A stretch of DNA of 42,087 nt. It comes from Flexilinea sp. GTDB lineage: Bacteria; Chloroflexota; Anaerolineae; Anaerolineales; Anaerolineaceae. The stretch lies in assembly GCA_026645735.1 (NCBI GenBank), contig JAPKMT010000030.1:1-42087 (forward strand), read 5' to 3'. Below, one piece after another: positions 19,660-30,110 of the stretch (positions are counted from its first letter, which is position 1; each line of letters begins with the position of its first letter). The notes beneath the pieces are model-generated. The model saw only the letters and a program-made list of their open reading frames with translations, did not search any database and was not told where the DNA came from. The translations under genes were made by a program, and so were the position numbers.

Positions 19660-19715
19660 TGAGGCCAAAAATTTATAAGTTGCTCAGATTAACAATATCT
19701 ATTCTAAAGATTTAA

Positions 19716-19857
19716 CAGCGATTCGAAATATGGGGAGAATTATTTGTTGTAGTGTTGTTTTTGCGCTCCGCGCAAAAACAACACTACAACAAGTTTTCTC
19801 TTTTTTCTCAAAAGGCATTTCTTTATTCGATAAGCCAACCCATATTTCAAATTGCTG
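19716..19857. mobile_element. Full-length palindromic MITE, copy B (142 bp)
   Basis: Ends CAGCGATTCGAAATATGG and CCATATTTCAAATTGCTG are inverted repeats. The central 23-bp perfect stem (19744-19766 with 19770-19792, loop TCC) carries the variable segment TAGTGTTG mirrored by CAACACTA. It is longer than the 123-bp standard through extra sequence in the right half. No convincing 9-bp flanking duplication was found. It lies between the convergent LysM and PolB genes. Confidence 0.84.
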
Positions 19858-19863
19858 CTTCCA

Positions 19864-22104
19864 TTAATATATTCTTTCCACTTTGGAATTCAGATAAGAA
19901 AATTCCGTTTGCAATCCACCTTGTGCATAGTCGGAAATTTGTTTTGCGTTAATCCCGAATGGGTATAGTATGGTACCGGCAGCCCGGGCTAAAAGTTCAC
20001 GGTATTTGGCTTTATCGATTTGCTCACTCTGAATTGGCCCGGGAATTTCCCAGGCAAAGACATCCGGCGTTCCAATGGTATACAGGTAGCGTATTTTTTG
20101 TCCGGGAGCAGTATTTTTCCCGGTAGTCTCCAATAATTGCCGGGCAGCCCGTACGGCTGCAGTTGGTGCTTTATATTCGCTTAATTTCCGGCTGATTCTG
20201 TTTGTAATGACCAGCTTTTCCGGAGGTATTTTGTCTGCATTGATAGCTTCCAGCGCGTCATGAAAGATTCGAAAAGCTTTGGGCAAATAATCCGGCAGCT
20301 TTCGTGCATCCGCAGCTTTGGACAGACAATTCAGCATTTCAAGTTGGGTTTCAATAATCCAGGCTGGTATGTCCCTGCGCCTTGCCTCGATACCGCGAAT
20401 TTTCAAACTCCCGTCTTCGAAAATCCCGAAATAACGATTTGGAACCGGCTGGTCATCATTGGAACGGGATGGAAGAAAAGCAATCCATCGGTAAATGCCA
20501 TCCATGGAAATGATCATTCCGGTTCGACGGGAAATTTCATCCAGCACCGGTTGAAAATCGGACACTTTTTTGCATCCGGATTTTTGAATCCAGAGTGCAT
20601 CGACAAACATATGCAGCACTTCAAAATCCATCTCCTCTGAGGTCTCTTTGGCAATCAGCAACGCTTCCCGGCCTCCACGAGTAACCGCTTCATGTGCTTC
20701 GATCCGTCCGAACCGTGCATTTTTGTACCCTAAAAAACCGAAGCAGACAACCAGCAGCCATTTCAATGCTGAAGCCCGTGCGGTATAACTTTTTGCAAGC
20801 GGAATGTTTTTATCCGGAAAATGCAGCAATTTTTCTTTGATAAGAACCCGTTTTTCATAAAGCGGTTTGAGAGTCAGCGGGACTACCCCGAGAATATTGC
20901 TGGCAGGTTTCAAACCATCCGGGAGCGGCACTTCGGGCGATATGTTCCCATTGATGATTACAGCCGGATACATGGATGTAAAATCGATTTCCGCTACATT
21001 GCAGTGGAGACCGGTTCGCGGCTGGTATATCAGACCGCCGCGATCAAATTGGATTAGATCCAACGCGGATTTGGAGGCTTCAATCTGCTGCTTCTGTTCC
21101 GGAACCAGAACATCCTGTTCCAGCGCAGTGATCATCTGCATGGCAGAGATGCCGGATCCCGGAGAAACACGGGCAGCCTGTTCTATCGGCAGGGTGGTAA
21201 CACGAGCGGATTCCAATGCGCCATCCAGGTGGTAATCACTCCACATCACCGCATTTTTCGTATCAATATGACAGCGCCCGAACAGATGCGCCTCGCGTCC
21301 GCGAAATACAATCTGACCATAGGAGTAATACGTGATTTCTTTCTTCCAGAATAACTTCCGTTCTTCATCCCGATTGATCTTCAGCGGAATGCCGGTGGCG
21401 TTTTCCATTTCCAATAATTCCGGAAAGAGCCAATCGTCGCCCCATTTTGTCTGAATCATATCCGGATCGATTTTCTCAATCAACTGATTGATATGATTCA
21501 GCGCATTGGCCGGATCCCTCATCCCGATTTGCTGTGCATGATGCTGATAGCTGAGCCTTAAGGAGTCCGGTTTTTTCTTGTTCGGATCACAAGACGGCTC
21601 TATTTCCAATATGCGCAGGACCGGATGCAGCGGCGTCACATCCCAGCGGCTGTTCAACACTTCCAGATTCAGAATTTCCTGATTTTCTGAATTGCAGGTA
21701 ACGGAACAAAATGCCAGAGGAAAAGTATGATAACGGGCAGCATGATGGATGTGGACGGCAAGGTCAGCATTGTAATATGTGAGATCCGGGAAATCTTTTT
21801 TCAGACGCTGGAAACAAATGCGCTGGCGAACTGGATTGTCCATTTCAATTTGCAGGACGCAAACCGGCTCGGGTTTAAACACATCGCGTTTATTCTCACG
21901 GCTTAGATTCATCAGTCCCGGCATCCCTTGCATTGCCAGACAATACTGATGAAGGCGTTCCCGTGGTCCTGCTGCATAAAAGCGGACAGGCAGGTACTGT
22001 CTCAGGCAAATTCGCTGATAGTCTTCGGTAATGAACCAGATTCGGACGCCGTCTGTTTCATCCTCATAAATATCTAAAATCCATCCTTTCAGGAGTGTTT
22101 TCAT
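19864..22104 (-). CDS. Family B (PolB-like) DNA polymerase with altered catalytic motifs
   Basis: A 746-residue PolB homologue with recognisable palm and thumb. Motif A is IDFTSMYPAV (Asp about 374). Motif B is KWLLVVCFGFLGYKNARFG, where the canonical N-S of KxxxNSxYG is V-V. Motif C is MFVDALW instead of YGDTDS: one Asp (about 502) remains, aligned with the second Asp. KIRGIEARRRDIP matches the thumb. The exonuclease motifs look degenerate (LEIE for FDIE; KWGDDWL for YNxxxFD), so proofreading is probably lost. The frame extends upstream to 22242 through a mobile element; ATG 22104 (MKTLLKGWILDIY) is preferred. It is the third gene of a cassette with a RecA-like protein. Polymerase activity and a translesion role are inferences. 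Confidence 0.9.
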   Translation of the reverse strand: MKTLLKGWILDIYEDETDGVRIWFITEDYQRICLRQYLPVRFYAAGPRERLHQYCLAMQGMPGLMNLSRENKRDVFKPEPVCVLQIEMDNPVRQRICFQRLKKDFPDLTYYNADLAVHIHHAARYHTFPLAFCSVTCNSENQEILNLEVLNSRWDVTPLHPVLRILEIEPSCDPNKKKPDSLRLSYQHHAQQIGMRDPANALNHINQLIEKIDPDMIQTKWGDDWLFPELLEMENATGIPLKINRDEERKLFWKKEITYYSYGQIVFRGREAHLFGRCHIDTKNAVMWSDYHLDGALESARVTTLPIEQAARVSPGSGISAMQMITALEQDVLVPEQKQQIEASKSALDLIQFDRGGLIYQPRTGLHCNVAEIDFTSMYPAVIINGNISPEVPLPDGLKPASNILGVVPLTLKPLYEKRVLIKEKLLHFPDKNIPLAKSYTARASALKWLLVVCFGFLGYKNARFGRIEAHEAVTRGGREALLIAKETSEEMDFEVLHMFVDALWIQKSGCKKVSDFQPVLDEISRRTGMIISMDGIYRWIAFLPSRSNDDQPVPNRYFGIFEDGSLKIRGIEARRRDIPAWIIETQLEMLNCLSKAADARKLPDYLPKAFRIFHDALEAINADKIPPEKLVITNRISRKLSEYKAPTAAVRAARQLLETTGKNTAPGQKIRYLYTIGTPDVFAWEIPGPIQSEQIDKAKYRELLARAAGTILYPFGINAKQISDYAQGGLQTEFSYLNSKVERIY

Positions 22105-22153
22105 CGGAAGCGGCGTTTTCTTTAAATAGCGTATGGGTGACACTGCAAATAAA

Positions 22154-22223
22154 AAGCAATTCGAAATTGAAACCTTCTTTTCAAATAAAGAGAGAAGAAT
22201 CCTCCTTATATTTCGAAAAACTG
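22154..22223. mobile_element. Short hairpin-less MITE (70 bp) upstream of the PolB gene
   Basis: Ends AAGCAATTCGAAATT and ATATTTCGAAAAACTG resemble the family's terminal inverted repeats. The interior CTTCTTTTCAAATAAAGAGAG resembles that of the short copy at 12373. No clear target duplication was found. It lies in the 150-nt gap between the small helical gene and the polymerase gene, and accounts for the spurious upstream extension of the polymerase frame. Confidence 0.5.
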
Positions 22224-22254
22224 ATGCGTTAAGCAGCTGCATGTAAAAAACAAT

Positions 22255-22596
22255 TTACAGTTCGTTATCCAGATCCTCAATCAGTTCTGTCAGGCTAGGC
22301 AAATTGGGTATTTCAGACTCAGGCGGAGGCTCAATTCCCTGCAGCTTGCAGAGCTGAGCAACTTTGTCTTCTGCGCGTCTCAGTTTTTTGTAAGTTTCAA
22401 GCAGCATGCTGATCAGGTAGATATCCATCGGATACAAATTGCTGGCATAAGACGCCTCCGCAATATGAAGACGCGACAGATTGGTTAATTCCTGCAGCAA
22501 TTGCTGATCATCTTTTCGCAGTGCGCGTGTGAAACGCGAGAGCGCTTTTTCCTCTTCAATCCAGGTTTGTGTTGCAGAACGAATTGTCCTTCCCAT
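22255..22596 (-). CDS. Small predicted all-helical protein of the PolB cassette
   Basis: A 113-residue protein with no family I can name. It is rich in charged and leucine residues and predicted mostly helical (WIEEEKALSRFTRALRKDD, LISMLLETYKKLRRAEDKV), with a proline break and an acidic C-terminus (LTELIEDLDNEL). There is no signal peptide or membrane segment. The ATG has a strong GGAGG site 6 nt upstream, inside sequence that appears to have been the end of the preceding gene before mobile elements inserted. By position it is probably a partner or bridging subunit for the polymerase and the RecA-like protein, which is inference. Confidence 0.78.
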   Translation of the reverse strand: MGRTIRSATQTWIEEEKALSRFTRALRKDDQQLLQELTNLSRLHIAEASYASNLYPMDIYLISMLLETYKKLRRAEDKVAQLCKLQGIEPPPESEIPNLPSLTELIEDLDNEL

Positions 22597-22626
22597 ACTC
22601 AGCCTCCCCTGCTTCTATCAAATAAT

Positions 22627-22696
22627 CAGTAATTCATAATTCCGAATGACCTTTTATAAATAAAGCGATTAATCTTGCTAACATTTCGCGTTGCTA
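22627..22696. mobile_element. Short hairpin-less MITE (70 bp) in tandem with copy C
   Basis: Ends CAGTAATTCATAATTCCG and AACATTTCGCGTTGCTA are degraded terminal repeats of the family. It is flanked by TCAAATAAT (22618-22626) and TCGAATAAT (22697-22705), 8 of 9 identical. The latter is also the left target duplication of the adjacent full-length copy C, so the two elements share a target site inside the PolB operon. Confidence 0.66.
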
Positions 22697-22705
22697 TCGA
22701 ATAAT

Positions 22706-22828
22706 CAGTGATTCGAAATATAGGAGGGATTATTTGTTGTTGTGTTGTTTTTGCGCTCCGCGCAAAAACAACACAACAACAAGTTTTCTCTCTTTTTTCA
22801 AAATGCTTTTCCAAACTTTCAATTGCTG
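22706..22828. mobile_element. Full-length palindromic MITE, copy C (123 bp), inside the PolB operon
   Basis: The left end is CAGTGATTCGAAATATAGG and the right end CTTTCAATTGCTG. A perfect 23-bp stem spans 22734-22756 and 22760-22782, loop TCC. It is flanked by identical 9-bp TCGAATAAT (22697-22705 and 22829-22837). The right terminus supplies the last two codons and the stop of the RecA-like gene. A transcript of the operon would carry the hairpin between the first two cistrons. Confidence 0.9.
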
Positions 22829-23421
22829 TCGAATAATGGTAATTGTTGATTCTTATCATCTTCAGTGATCAGAGGCGTATTTTGAAGCTGTTGAAACTGG
22901 TCCGCCGCTTCTTTCAGTTGATAAATCAGATCAATGCGACTTACGGCGAGTTCAGGAATGGGTTTAACGCCAACCAATACAGGATTTTTACGGCTTATTT
23001 TTCGGATATGGTCCAGCACATTTCCGAACAACCGCTCCGCTTCTTTTTTTTGCACACTTTCATCGAAAAACGTGGTTAACAGATCCAATATCAGGACCGG
23101 CATATTTTCAAGAGAACGGCTTTCTGACAACAGCGCTTCGGTCTGATAGCAGGTAAAGGCTCGGGAAAGATGGATATTCAGCATGGCAGCTGCCGGATCA
23201 CGTGTGATTCCTCTCAATTCACGTGCGACGAGATGCATGTCAGAACGATTGCCGCAATCCAGAATTCTGACTGCATTATTCAATGCCAGATTTGCGCACA
23301 GCTGCAGTAATTGTGGCGTGGCAGCCTGTGGACCGTACAGAACCAAGAATCCACAGGAGAGCGGCTGCTGCAAAGCAATGGCTGTTTTATCGGATGCATA
23401 AAGTTCAATAGTTGTTTCCAT
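22819..23421 (-). CDS. Degenerate RecA-like protein with putative sliding-clamp motif (first gene of the PolB cassette)
   Basis: A 200-residue protein with the layout of a RecA/ImuA-like ATPase core. A beta-strand and loop VLYGPQAATPQLLQ occupies the Walker A place but lacks G-K-[ST]. A hydrophobic strand MPVLILDLLTTFFDE (about 107-121) resembles Walker B. ATP hydrolysis is therefore doubtful. The C-terminus QQLPLFDSN (192-200) contains QLPLF, which fits the bacterial beta-clamp-binding consensus QL[SD]LF closely. Transcription starts from a consensus promoter so close to the ATG that the mRNA is probably leaderless. The last residues and the stop come from a mobile-element end; before insertion the protein probably ended FDRSRGG. 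The role is inferred: a clamp-linked recombinase-like accessory factor for the polymerase. Confidence 0.82.
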   Translation of the reverse strand: METTIELYASDKTAIALQQPLSCGFLVLYGPQAATPQLLQLCANLALNNAVRILDCGNRSDMHLVARELRGITRDPAAAMLNIHLSRAFTCYQTEALLSESRSLENMPVLILDLLTTFFDESVQKKEAERLFGNVLDHIRKISRKNPVLVGVKPIPELAVSRIDLIYQLKEAADQFQQLQNTPLITEDDKNQQLPLFDSN

Positions 23422-23427
23422 ATTTCA

Positions 23428-23455
23428 ATTATAGAACAATTATTCTATTTGTCAA
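23428..23455 (-). promoter_or_regulatory. Consensus promoter with overlapping LexA-like palindrome
   Basis: On the minus strand TTGACA (23455-23450), a 16-nt spacer and TATAAT (23433-23428) form a perfect-consensus promoter. Only 6 nt separate the -10 box from the ATG, so transcription should start at or next to the start codon. The 16-bp palindrome TAGAACAATTATTCTA (23432-23447; one mismatched pair) fills the spacer and touches the -10 box. It is one mismatch from the GAAC-N4-GTTC operator of Gram-positive-type LexA. Binding there would block RNA polymerase. Regulation by LexA is inference. Confidence 0.72.
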
Positions 23456-23472
23456 TGAAACTAATGATTCGA

Positions 23473-23595
23473 CAGCAATTCGAAGTATGGAGAAAAATAA
23501 TTGTTGTTGTGGTGGTTTTGCGCTTTGCGCAAAACCACCACAACAACATATTTTCTCTTGCTATTCGAAAAGTATGTCCATATTTTTGAATTGCT
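23473..23595. mobile_element. Full-length palindromic MITE, copy D (123 bp), with perfect target duplication
   Basis: The left end is CAGCAATTCGAAGTATGG and the right end CCATATTTTTGAATTGCT. The element is flanked by an exact repeat CTAATGATTCGACAG (23461-23475 and 23594-23608), which gives a 9-bp target duplication ATGATTCGA after removing the terminal CAG/CTA trinucleotides. A perfect 22-bp central stem spans 23502-23523 and 23527-23548, loop TTT, with the variable segment TGTGGTGG mirrored by CCACCACA. It sits about 20 bp upstream of the PolB-cassette promoter and is probably among the youngest insertions here. Confidence 0.92.
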
Positions 23596-23755: not shown

Positions 23756-26482
23756 TTAATAAGATCCGGCAGATTTATTGACACGGATTTCAAAGTTGCT
23801 GAAAGCACAATCGACATATTGCGTATTTTTCTCGATATAAGTTCCCAGAAACATGGTGACATGGCTGGTGATTCCATCTTCCACTTCACCAATGAAGACA
23901 CCATCGATAAAAACATTGGCGGTTCCATCGATTCGGATGATGTCGATTCTGTAAGTTCTGCCGACTTCTCCATAATTACTGAGATCAATGAATTCCACAC
24001 TTTCCTTTTCCGGATATGCGTATGTGCTAATTGCGTATCCCGGTTCAACATCAAACCATTTGAATCGGTTTTCTCCAGCAATTTCTTTGTCTGTATACGA
24101 AACATAGCAGTTGCCATAGCCATCGGAAGGTTGGACTTCTGTAATCGTGACATCCGCATGAAGTGCAAAATTGCGAAATGATCCTAATTGCGTGTTTAAA
24201 TAATGTCCATAGCTGTCTTCTTCTGTTGTGCCTCCCGGTGCATCCAGTATGGTGTGGTATGTCCCATTTACCAATCGCGAATGGTATATTACACCCTCAC
24301 TGACAGTCTCATCGTTTTCTGAAATCCCCCAATTGTTTGGATTAACTGCAATATTCGGGAAAAGCGTTTGTACCTGGCCCAGCAGATTTTGTTTTTCCGG
24401 ATTGACCTGAGGAGAAGGATTTTGGATGGGACTCTGGATGGTTTGAATATTCTGTGTGGTTCGAATTTCAAAATTATTGAATGCACAATCGGTATAGGTA
24501 CCCCCGCTTCCTGTGTATGAGCCAAACCACCAATTGATATTTCCCTCCATTTCATCCCATATTTCTTCGACTAAAACGCCATCGATGAAAATACTGGTCG
24601 TTCCATTCATCCGGATAATATTAATGCTGTAATTTCGACCGATTTCTCCAAAGGCGCTTAAATCAATTCCTTCCTGGTATGCCCCGCCATTATCCTGGGA
24701 ATAGCCAAAGGATTCATCTCCAAGAAAAAGATGAACAGATCGGTACAGTTCATCTTGTATCGTTTTCCCGTTGGTATATGCCAGTACGCAATTTCCTGTG
24801 CTTCCGGCAGGAAGGACTTCAGAAAGCGTTACATCCGCATGAAAAACGAAGTCGCTGATGGAGACAGTATTTTGCCGGAAATACTCTCCATAGCTGAATC
24901 CTTCTGTCAGAGGGACTGGTGAACTGAAAATGGTATGGTAGATTCCATTTTTAAAGAGGGTTGTGTAATTTTTCCCGTCTCCGAGATTTGTCTGTAAGTT
25001 TTCCAATCCCGAATTATTTTTGTCAAGTATGATGGTTGGAAACAGAGATTCAATTTGTTCCAGTTGTATTGGCTGATTCTCAACGGCTTGATTGCCAGGC
25101 TCGGAAATCAGGCTTACCGGACTGGTATCTCCTGGCGACGTTTGTAGATTATCACGAGTGCGAACCTGAAAATTCTTAAATGAACAATCAACGGTTTGTC
25201 CTGCTTCACCCAGCATGGTACCAATATTCAGCGAAACATCTTCGATAGCGTTATCATTCACTTCACCGATGAAGACCTGATTAAAGTAAATATTTGCAAC
25301 ACCGTTTACTCGGATAATATCAATACTGTCTTCTGTTCCGATTTGCCCGTAGGATTCCAGGCTGAACCAGTCCTGATATTGTGAAGAGGATGGGTTCGCG
25401 CTGTTTCCTGTATAGATCGTGAATCCCGGTTCGATAACCAACCGTTGATAATAATCCAAATTGGTCCGGTCGGGATATAAATTGGAATAGGATAAGTAAC
25501 ATCGGCCTATATTATCCACAGGCAGCATTTCACCTTTGGTGATATCCACATGAAGATGGAAATCATGCAGGAGGCCGGATTCAGCAGTGACAGCTCGGAT
25601 TAAATAAGTTATCTCTTTCAACGGAGATTGTGTTTTTATCCCTAAGTGATAGTCTCCGTTTTCCGCTTTCCCTTCAAAAATAATTCCTTCGCCTTTATCC
25701 TGTTGAAAATCGTTTTGTCCCCAGTTGTTTTGGTCAATTGCAACTTTTGGAAATATTGTCGGAACAAGAGACAGCAATAGTTGTTTATCGATACCATTGA
25801 TAAAAACTTCAGAGATCGCCGGTTCTGAATCGGATTTTTCGATCTGAATGTCTTCAATTTGGGATGGGGGGGAAGTAGGATTCGGTTTGATCAGCCTGTC
25901 AAAAATCGAACCGGAAGCTGGTTCATCCATTGCAGAAGCATTCGATTGGTTGTTGTCTTCTTCAGTTTCATCAGCAAGCAATGATTCATTTTGATTGATT
26001 TGCGTAATTTCATTTTCATCGGATGCAGTTTCAACATCTGCTCCTTCGACTATGTTATCGATTTGCCAAACCATATCATCTGTTGAGGGTCCCCAACCAG
26101 GCTGGTAATATATTTTATAAGGTCCGGGTTCCTGCATCTTAAAACAGACTAATCCAGTTAATTCTGAGTTAGGGAGAATTGTCCCATCGATCGTCGCACC
26201 ACTGCAGCTAAATGAGTCATTGGTCAGGCTCTGTCCGGCAGCGTTTTCTAACCGAAAACTGAGAAATGATGATACTTTGATGTCGGAAGTACCGGTATTT
26301 TGAATCAAAAAGTTGATTTCAATTCGGTCACCATCGATCACAGCTGTCTTGAGTGTAATATTTCGATCATTCTTGCTGATGGTCTCTCTTATCTGAGGTA
26401 TTTTCCAAAATGCTGCAACAGTGAAAGAGGGGATCGCCAGTAGAACCAGGATCAATACGAGGATATTTCGATAGCGTTTCAA
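23756..26482 (-). CDS. Secreted protein with DUF4352-like domain and three LamG/lectin-like repeats
   Basis: A 908-residue exported protein. A signal peptide (about 1-24, ending near FTVAA) is followed by a DUF4352-like immunoglobulin fold (about 30-150, with DRIEINFLIQNTGTSDIKV and a Cys pair), an acidic Asn/Glu/Ser-rich linker, and three homologous domains of about 200 residues (about 235-455, 475-690, 710-905). Each repeat runs from an LFP-x-[IV]-x-x-[DN]-x-N-N segment through D-[IV]-I-R-x-[ND]-G to DCAFNNFEIR and has one Cys pair. The fold resembles LamG/concanavalin-type glycan-binding modules; no catalytic residues are apparent. The start is a TTG behind a strong AAGGAGG. It is the last gene of a three-paralogue group. 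Confidence 0.84.
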   Translation of the reverse strand: MKRYRNILVLILVLLAIPSFTVAAFWKIPQIRETISKNDRNITLKTAVIDGDRIEINFLIQNTGTSDIKVSSFLSFRLENAAGQSLTNDSFSCSGATIDGTILPNSELTGLVCFKMQEPGPYKIYYQPGWGPSTDDMVWQIDNIVEGADVETASDENEITQINQNESLLADETEEDNNQSNASAMDEPASGSIFDRLIKPNPTSPPSQIEDIQIEKSDSEPAISEVFINGIDKQLLLSLVPTIFPKVAIDQNNWGQNDFQQDKGEGIIFEGKAENGDYHLGIKTQSPLKEITYLIRAVTAESGLLHDFHLHVDITKGEMLPVDNIGRCYLSYSNLYPDRTNLDYYQRLVIEPGFTIYTGNSANPSSSQYQDWFSLESYGQIGTEDSIDIIRVNGVANIYFNQVFIGEVNDNAIEDVSLNIGTMLGEAGQTVDCSFKNFQVRTRDNLQTSPGDTSPVSLISEPGNQAVENQPIQLEQIESLFPTIILDKNNSGLENLQTNLGDGKNYTTLFKNGIYHTIFSSPVPLTEGFSYGEYFRQNTVSISDFVFHADVTLSEVLPAGSTGNCVLAYTNGKTIQDELYRSVHLFLGDESFGYSQDNGGAYQEGIDLSAFGEIGRNYSINIIRMNGTTSIFIDGVLVEEIWDEMEGNINWWFGSYTGSGGTYTDCAFNNFEIRTTQNIQTIQSPIQNPSPQVNPEKQNLLGQVQTLFPNIAVNPNNWGISENDETVSEGVIYHSRLVNGTYHTILDAPGGTTEEDSYGHYLNTQLGSFRNFALHADVTITEVQPSDGYGNCYVSYTDKEIAGENRFKWFDVEPGYAISTYAYPEKESVEFIDLSNYGEVGRTYRIDIIRIDGTANVFIDGVFIGEVEDGITSHVTMFLGTYIEKNTQYVDCAFSNFEIRVNKSAGSY

Positions 26483-29987: not shown

Positions 29988-30110
29988 CAGCAATTCGAAT
30001 TATGAGAGGGATTTTTTGTTGTCGTGTTGTTTTTGCGCTTCGCGCAAAAACAACACGACAACAAATTTCCTCTTTTTATTTGAAAGGTTAATCCATATTT
30101 CGAATCGCTG
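29988..30110. mobile_element. Full-length palindromic MITE, copy E (123 bp)
   Basis: Ends CAGCAATTCGAATTATG and CCATATTTCGAATCGCTG are inverted repeats. A perfect 24-bp stem spans 30015-30038 and 30042-30065, loop TTC, with the variable segment TCGTGTTG mirrored by CAACACGA. No convincing target duplication was found. It lies between the divergent secreted-protein promoter and der. The remaining 130 nt before der hold no clear feature beyond a purine-rich ribosome site. Confidence 0.86.

Follow-up and report, generated by a model that had tools for sequence, protein, structure and literature searches.

The ImuA-ImuB-DnaE2 system is an SOS-controlled operon that combines a non-replicative polymerase with a clamp-binding part and a protein of RecA fold; the polymerase belongs to family C and the clamp motif lies in ImuB. 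The cassette analyzed here, three genes termed iRadA, PPB2 and PolB2 from Flexilinea sp. (Anaerolineaceae), has no family in common with that system beyond the RecA fold. It lies in a window of 42,087 nucleotides (nt), the entire contig JAPKMT010000030.1 of a 3.35-Mb assembly that is 92% complete. Pol V (UmuD'2C-RecA) is another system in which a polymerase is joined to a RecA-fold subunit and small accessory subunits, a parallel drawn in the main text of PMC11791011, but its polymerase is a Y-family enzyme and its RecA is an active recombinase rather than an inactivated paralogue.

The closest described counterparts are the PolB2 operons. The three components were linked by Makarova, Krupovic and Koonin in 2014 (PMC4104785), and a PolB2 mutasome built from them was predicted by Timinskas, Timinskas and Venclovas in 2025, whose model is a heteropentameric complex, PolB2:iRadA:PPB2(3) (PMC11791011); a 2026 survey of bacterial polymerases repeats the prediction (PMC12926913), and according to the main texts of the cited papers bacterial PolB2 mutasomes are known from sequence and models only. 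The bacterial operons of group G2, as described there, agree with the window in gene order, strand, the MGRT arm, the degenerate P-loop, the lost DxD aspartate, and a clamp motif confined to iRadA (PMC11791011, PMC4104785). The published link to LexA is a neighboring lexA gene in some bacteria, whereas in the window's genome the single lexA match is on another contig than the cassette. The PolB2/Dpo2 operon of Sulfolobales contains the same three gene families and is reported to be damage-inducible, but its neighborhood is enriched in orc1/cdc6 rather than lexA, and its clamp motifs are of the PCNA type (PMC11791011). The first-pass annotation of this DNA, made from its letters alone, had left open whether the gene arrangement, the clamp motif and the operator had been described together: the first two are already in print (PMC11791011), while a term search of the main texts (PMC11791011, PMC4104785, PMC7544198) found no report of LexA boxes, leaderless promoters or LuxR genes in connection with PolB2 operons. 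What we add is sequence evidence that points to direct SOS control, a predicted leaderless promoter geometry, and a putative fourth gene of LuxR/GerE type in deeper lineages.

We consider it highly probable that iRadA, PPB2 and PolB2 form one damage-induced operon, repressed by LexA at a box between the -35 and -10 elements, and that their products make a single lesion-bypass polymerase complex. Because the promoter's LexA-type box recurs in many relatives, the cell would likely switch on this predicted error-prone complex after DNA damage. Damage would activate RecA and LexA would be cleaved; RNA polymerase would then start at the iRadA ATG or at a neighboring position and so produce a leaderless iRadA mRNA, and PPB2 would be translated from its own Shine-Dalgarno-like site. 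PolB2, with its first DxD aspartate lost and its exonuclease motifs degenerate, would elongate primers whose ends are mispaired or damaged, with no proofreading. In the published model the MGRT arm of one subunit of the PPB2 trimer would insert between PolB2 and iRadA, and PolB2 would bind iRadA in the way that adjacent RadA subunits bind each other; the tether to the beta clamp would be the QLPLF tail of iRadA, not PolB2. The cassette and its promoter are laid out as follows.

22819 to 23421, minus strand: iRadA, a 200-amino-acid (aa) protein with an apparent RadA/Rad51-like core fold
22255 to 22596, minus strand: PPB2, a helical partner protein of 113 aa, with GGGGAGG (Shine-Dalgarno-like) ahead of its start
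19864 to 22104, minus strand: PolB2, a family-B DNA polymerase (PF00136) of 746 aa, its reading frame open to 22242
23450 to 23455, minus strand: -35 element TTGACA of the operon promoter, read from the sequence, with TTGAC in the box-bearing loci
23434 to 23445, minus strand: LexA-type box GAATAATTGTTC in the -35/-10 spacer, one mismatch from GAACN4GTTC and identical in Flexilinea flocculi (L022)
23433 to 23428, minus strand: -10 element TATAAT, ending 6 nt ahead of the iRadA ATG (23421)

The three consecutive minus-strand genes of the first-pass annotation were recovered in place, strand and order as open reading frames (ORFs) of 200 aa (23421-22819), 113 aa (22596-22255) and 792 aa (22242-19864), and the order iRadA, PPB2, PolB2 on one strand is that published for bacterial PolB2 operons. 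The nearest named relative of iRadA and PPB2 is F. flocculi (88% and 96% identity), whose PolB2 is 93% identical to that of the window. On the coding strand the promoter reads TTGACA-AATA-GAATAATTGTTC-TATAAT-TGAAAT-ATG. The LexA-like palindrome noticed earlier is weak when taken alone, but it is credible because of its position in the promoter and because boxes stand at the same place in relatives.

These relatives come from a scan with a PolB2 alignment, one genome per species, which gave 80 loci (the best 80 of 123 confirmed matches) from Chloroflexota, mostly Anaerolineaceae and other Anaerolineae. Promoters were counted in the 72 loci with at least 120 nt upstream of iRadA, which excludes the 6 of 80 that lack iRadA and also L027 and L064, with shorter flanks, both of which have the box. 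Between -220 and +20 of iRadA an exact GAACN4GTTC occurs in 24 of the 72 loci (0.17 expected), and allowing one mismatch raises this to 38 (4.5 expected), a count that includes a few matches elsewhere, for example within the tRNA sequence of L024 and L025. Boxes with up to two mismatches that are framed by a -35 and a -10 element stand directly before iRadA in 38 of 72, versus 22 of 2676 random windows of the same loci; the two sets of 38 differ in part. A further 25 loci have, within 900 nt before iRadA, a gene whose product carries a GerE (LuxR-type) helix-turn-helix (HTH) domain, and the box precedes that gene with at most one mismatch in 24, of which 20 are exact; the remaining locus, L095, runs off its contig. 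L072 has an exact box that lacks a TTGAC. By these mixed criteria 63 of the 72 operons (38 + 24 + L072) have the box at their front, which is the conserved operator that the first-pass annotation had proposed to look for. By the single criterion of an exact box in the 1000 nt upstream of iRadA the count is 44 of 72, and only 9 exact boxes lie elsewhere in the same loci (796,999 bp). On the PolB2 tree the box-before-iRadA state needs 3 changes, versus 24.6 with shuffled labels.

The same geometry is found at SOS genes of the window's genome. The lexA promoter reads TTGACT-GC-GAACACTTGTTC-TGT-TATAGT and the recA promoter TTGACG...GAACAAATGTAC-TATAAT, with boxes placed as in the iRadA promoter, and the pattern TTGACN1-6GAAYN4RTTC has 7 matches genome-wide (control 1), 5 inside ORFs and 2 in promoters, those of lexA and the cassette. 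In a survey that drew on 43 of the 80 PolB2 loci, 40 of 41 genomes spanning both operon types have lexA, and an exact box lies upstream of it in 29 of the 30 lexA loci fetched. SOS control of the cassette is well supported at the level of sequence. In five loci (L037, L041, L047, L048, L061) a second one-mismatch LexA-type box (GTAC/GCAC...GTTC) was seen about 86 nt before the start of the iRadA domain, just upstream of the promoter box, as if the operator had been doubled. The LexA of the window's genome (L020, 1480-2175) has VASAP (Ala-Ser) at the position of the cleavage site, which in E. coli LexA is Ala-Gly; both residues of the peptidase dyad, Ser and Lys, are apparently present.

The coupling of the three genes is conserved as well. 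Matches to iRadA and PPB2 are found in 74 and 73 of the 80 PolB2 loci, respectively, all three genes share a strand in 73 of 73 complete loci, and both gaps are at most 500 nt in 72 of these; four of the six iRadA-less loci are at contig ends. Among 121 genomes of the window's family, 88 have iRadA and 89 PPB2, and PPB2 lies within 700 nt downstream of iRadA in 87 of the 88 that have both. The co-occurrence on which the earlier idea of a cassette depended thus holds, in 72 of 73 loci and 87 of 88 family genomes. More than 1 kb separates PPB2 from PolB2 in L053, and iRadA from PPB2 in genome G030; PolB2 in L030 (6012-8185) and iRadA in L049 (5019-5550) are split over two ORFs, which may reflect decay or assembly error.

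A rather unlikely alternative is that the LexA box governs iRadA only, with the 222-nt gap after iRadA uncoupling PPB2 and PolB2, which would use another promoter. The gap contains a copy of a genome-wide hairpin repeat, which the first-pass annotation had not noted, and that of F. flocculi is likewise long and hairpin-bearing, which would fit such uncoupling; on the coding strand, though, no T-run follows the hairpin, and many relatives combine short gaps with a box promoter at the front. Copies of the repeat flank the genes at three places.

23461 to 23578, strand unassigned: hairpin repeat directly upstream of the promoter, with no counterpart there in F. flocculi
22694 to 22811, strand unassigned: hairpin repeat between iRadA and PPB2
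19704 to 19821, strand unassigned: hairpin repeat downstream of PolB2

The repeat is about 118 nt long with a perfect hairpin of 22-23 bp, whose arms vary between copies with compensating changes; a hairpin with the same core also occurs at position 30033 of the window, and the repeat was found at no fewer than 40 places in the genome (40 of 491 first-look candidates scored). By eye, the promoters of lexA (L020), recA (L021) and dinB (L109) also have hairpin or flanking sequence similar to the repeat next to them. The hairpin repeats were rejected as part of the system, being genome-wide, also near other promoters, and missing upstream in F. flocculi.

The polymerase gene raises the question of activity. 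Its family-B character and its place were as first annotated, but its start is probably 22104 (746 aa) and not 22242, because relatives align from about that Met and the extra 46 aa are encoded by repeat-like sequence; a start near MKT/FLKGW is shared by the F. flocculi gene and almost every aligned relative. Three polymerase motifs were located.

20956 to 20991, minus strand: PolB2 motif A EIDFTSMYPAVI, catalytic Asp kept (DFxS[ML]YP in 80 of 80 loci)
20725 to 20766, minus strand: PolB2 motif B LKWLLVVCFGFLGY, Lys kept, NSxYG altered, from the sequence
20590 to 20610, minus strand: PolB2 motif C MFVDALW, first Asp of DxD lost and second kept, from the alignment

The FVD of motif C aligns with the DTD of the P. 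abyssi enzyme; the first aspartate is lost in 79 of 80 loci, and in one the motif was not found. The motif C histidine is present in the window (VLHMFVD) and in 70 of the 79 loci scored. The ExoI stretch of the window PolB2, LRILEIEP, is not conserved when set against the D-I-E of the canonical ExoI, and no ExoIII was seen by eye in the PolB2 alignment, for which no motif search or structure of that domain was made. For the bacterial PolB2 group G2, Kazlauskas 2020 lists a non-conserved ExoI, a missing ExoIII, a single aspartate in motif C and a conserved motif C histidine (main text of PMC7544198).

We regard it as unlikely that PolB2 is catalytically dead and that the complex serves in structure or regulation, perhaps at stalled forks. 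The lost first aspartate of motif C, the altered motif B, and the degenerate ExoI and ExoII stretches all speak for such a role, and Makarova et al. interpreted the PolB2 group as inactivated (main text of PMC4104785). On the other side, the motif A aspartate is kept in every locus, the motif B lysine and the second motif C aspartate are conserved, and an archaeal PolB2 with the same loss is reported to be active and mutagenic (cited in PMC11791011 and PMC7544198).

It is very unlikely that a strong promoter here contains a near-palindrome by chance and that the operon stands outside SOS. Boxes with at most one mismatch are as frequent in the window (19) as in shuffled sequence (16.3, standard deviation 3.9), showing no enrichment, and exact GAACN4GTTC sites genome-wide (26, versus 22 in the control; genes were checked at 8 of the 26 and at the lexA site) are uninformative by themselves. 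Against chance, both position and sequence class are kept across loci and enriched over controls, and the lexA and recA promoters match.

The two partner proteins agree with the published mutasome, and the following motifs were identified in them.

23311 to 23334, minus strand: degenerate P-loop GPQAATPQ of iRadA, without GKT/S, from the iRadA sequence
22831 to 22845, minus strand: beta-clamp-binding-type motif QLPLF at the iRadA C-terminus, from the sequence
22585 to 22596, minus strand: N-terminal arm motif MGRT of PPB2 (MGR[TS] in 72 of 73 PPB2 matches)

The best structure matches of the iRadA model appear to be RadA/Rad51. The earlier description as a degenerate RecA-like protein was right as to the RecA fold and the degenerate P-loop (GPQAATPQ, compared with the RecA P-loop), but the closest structures are RadA/Rad51; iRadA is a RadA-like protein without an ATPase site and without an N-terminal domain, as in the bacterial G2 group. 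Within the last 30 residues Qxx[LM][FL] occurs in 67 of 73 iRadA tails (6.4 expected from shuffled tails; L049, with iRadA over two ORFs, is excluded) and in 0 of 73 PolB2 tails (2.6 expected), some of which are cut by contig ends (L032, L073, L101); the stricter Q[LIMV]x[LMI][FLW] occurs in 26 of 74 iRadA (2.0 expected) and 0 of 74 PolB2 tails. The suggestion that the RecA-like protein itself carries the clamp motif is thereby borne out, by QLPLF in the window and by the relatives, and its apparent absence from PolB2 agrees with the published pattern. For PPB2, Pfam gave no significant match in the window and the fold search only weak ones; a protein database assigns PF26485 to its relatives.

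That the cassette is a divergent member of the ImuA-ImuB-DnaE2 family is barely credible, and membership was rejected because the polymerase is of family B (PF00136) and not C: the shared design (RecA-fold protein, accessory protein, polymerase and SOS box) is outweighed by this, by a RecA-fold protein nearest to RadA/Rad51, and by the lack of a Y-family domain in the cassette (Pfam), the one Y-family polymerase match of the genome (PF00817) being on another contig. The functional analogy with a PolB-like enzyme that the first-pass annotation had drawn stands as an analogy only, with adjacency and operator conserved.

Several observations weigh against a LexA-controlled lesion-bypass operon. 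The window's own box carries one mismatch, no box was found in 8 of the 72 loci (L034, L068, L073, L080, L094, L099, L100, L101), and five gut-derived relatives have a two-mismatch box (L024, L025, L026, L028, L029). L137, the sole lexA promoter fetched from that gut-derived group, has no exact box either; in this group the operator may differ or be weaker. No lexA match was found in the genome of L067, which has a LuxR-front operon. L065 and L066 have PolB2 and full upstream flanks with no match to iRadA or PPB2, L070 has no PPB2 match, and 33 of the 121 family genomes have no iRadA match, some of these assemblies being incomplete. The hairpin between iRadA and PPB2 could weaken read-through. 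The window PolB2 has HIDTK (D-T-K) where 56 of the 79 relatives scored have D-R or D-K after HI, presumably the published D(K/R) motif. Finally, because the relatives share descent, counts over loci are non-independent samples.

Of the 40 loci whose box stands ahead of iRadA, 38 have a -10 element that ends 6-8 nt short of the start codon (over all 40 it is 6 nt in 31, 7 nt in 2, 8 nt in 5, 0 nt in 1 and 29 nt in 1, with a script that chose the start codon nearest the -10 and so favors short distances); from this spacing the iRadA mRNA is predicted to be leaderless, its 5' end being the first codon. Under a strict definition a promoter lies this close in 35 of 38 iRadA frames, versus 4 of 520 other frames of the same loci, taken mechanically (at least 150 aa, any start codon within the first 60 codons). 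Genome-wide, TTGACN16-19TATAATN5-8ATG has 5 matches (control 1), the cassette included. Of the 24 box-bearing loci where the LuxR-type gene comes first, 15 have 5-9 nt between the -10 and the start, and the other 9 have no such -10 or have it elsewhere. A dinB-like Y-family gene (L109) has a TATAAT ending 7 nt before its ATG and no clear LexA box, and is a second candidate for a leaderless repair gene.

As to the LuxR/GerE-type protein, the four that were scored against Pfam GerE gave E-values of 4e-11 to 2e-14. In L081, L088, L092, L098 and others it was seen as a small protein with a C-terminal LuxR/GerE HTH encoded by the first gene of the operon. The idea that this gene replaces LexA control in deeper lineages was dropped because the LexA box turned out to precede the LuxR gene, and a loss of LexA from LuxR-front genomes was rejected on the lexA survey (40 of 41). 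Evenly balanced, in our judgment, is the joint reading that the PolB2 mutasome of Anaerolineae is expressed from a LexA-gated leaderless mRNA, with box, promoter and start fused in a conserved stretch of about 37 nt, and has a LuxR/GerE-type fourth member in deeper lineages. Under that joint reading derepression alone would give a message beginning at the start codon, whose translation may favor stressed ribosomes, and the LuxR/GerE-type protein would be a mutasome regulator or partner not reported to date, absent on the Flexilinea side.

A LexA box at the operon front in many Anaerolineae ties PolB2 mutasomes to SOS at the level of sequence and predicts their timing, and F. flocculi TC1 is a named strain in which this prediction is checkable; further concrete points that can be checked are the leaderless start predicted here and a fourth gene of LuxR type. 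If true, bacteria would hold an archaea-derived solution for SOS mutagenesis beside Pol V and ImuA-ImuB-DnaE2. Adjoining the cassette on the minus strand (23756-26482) is a gene for a secreted-looking protein of 908 aa in which, by eye, a domain of some 200 aa occurs three times.

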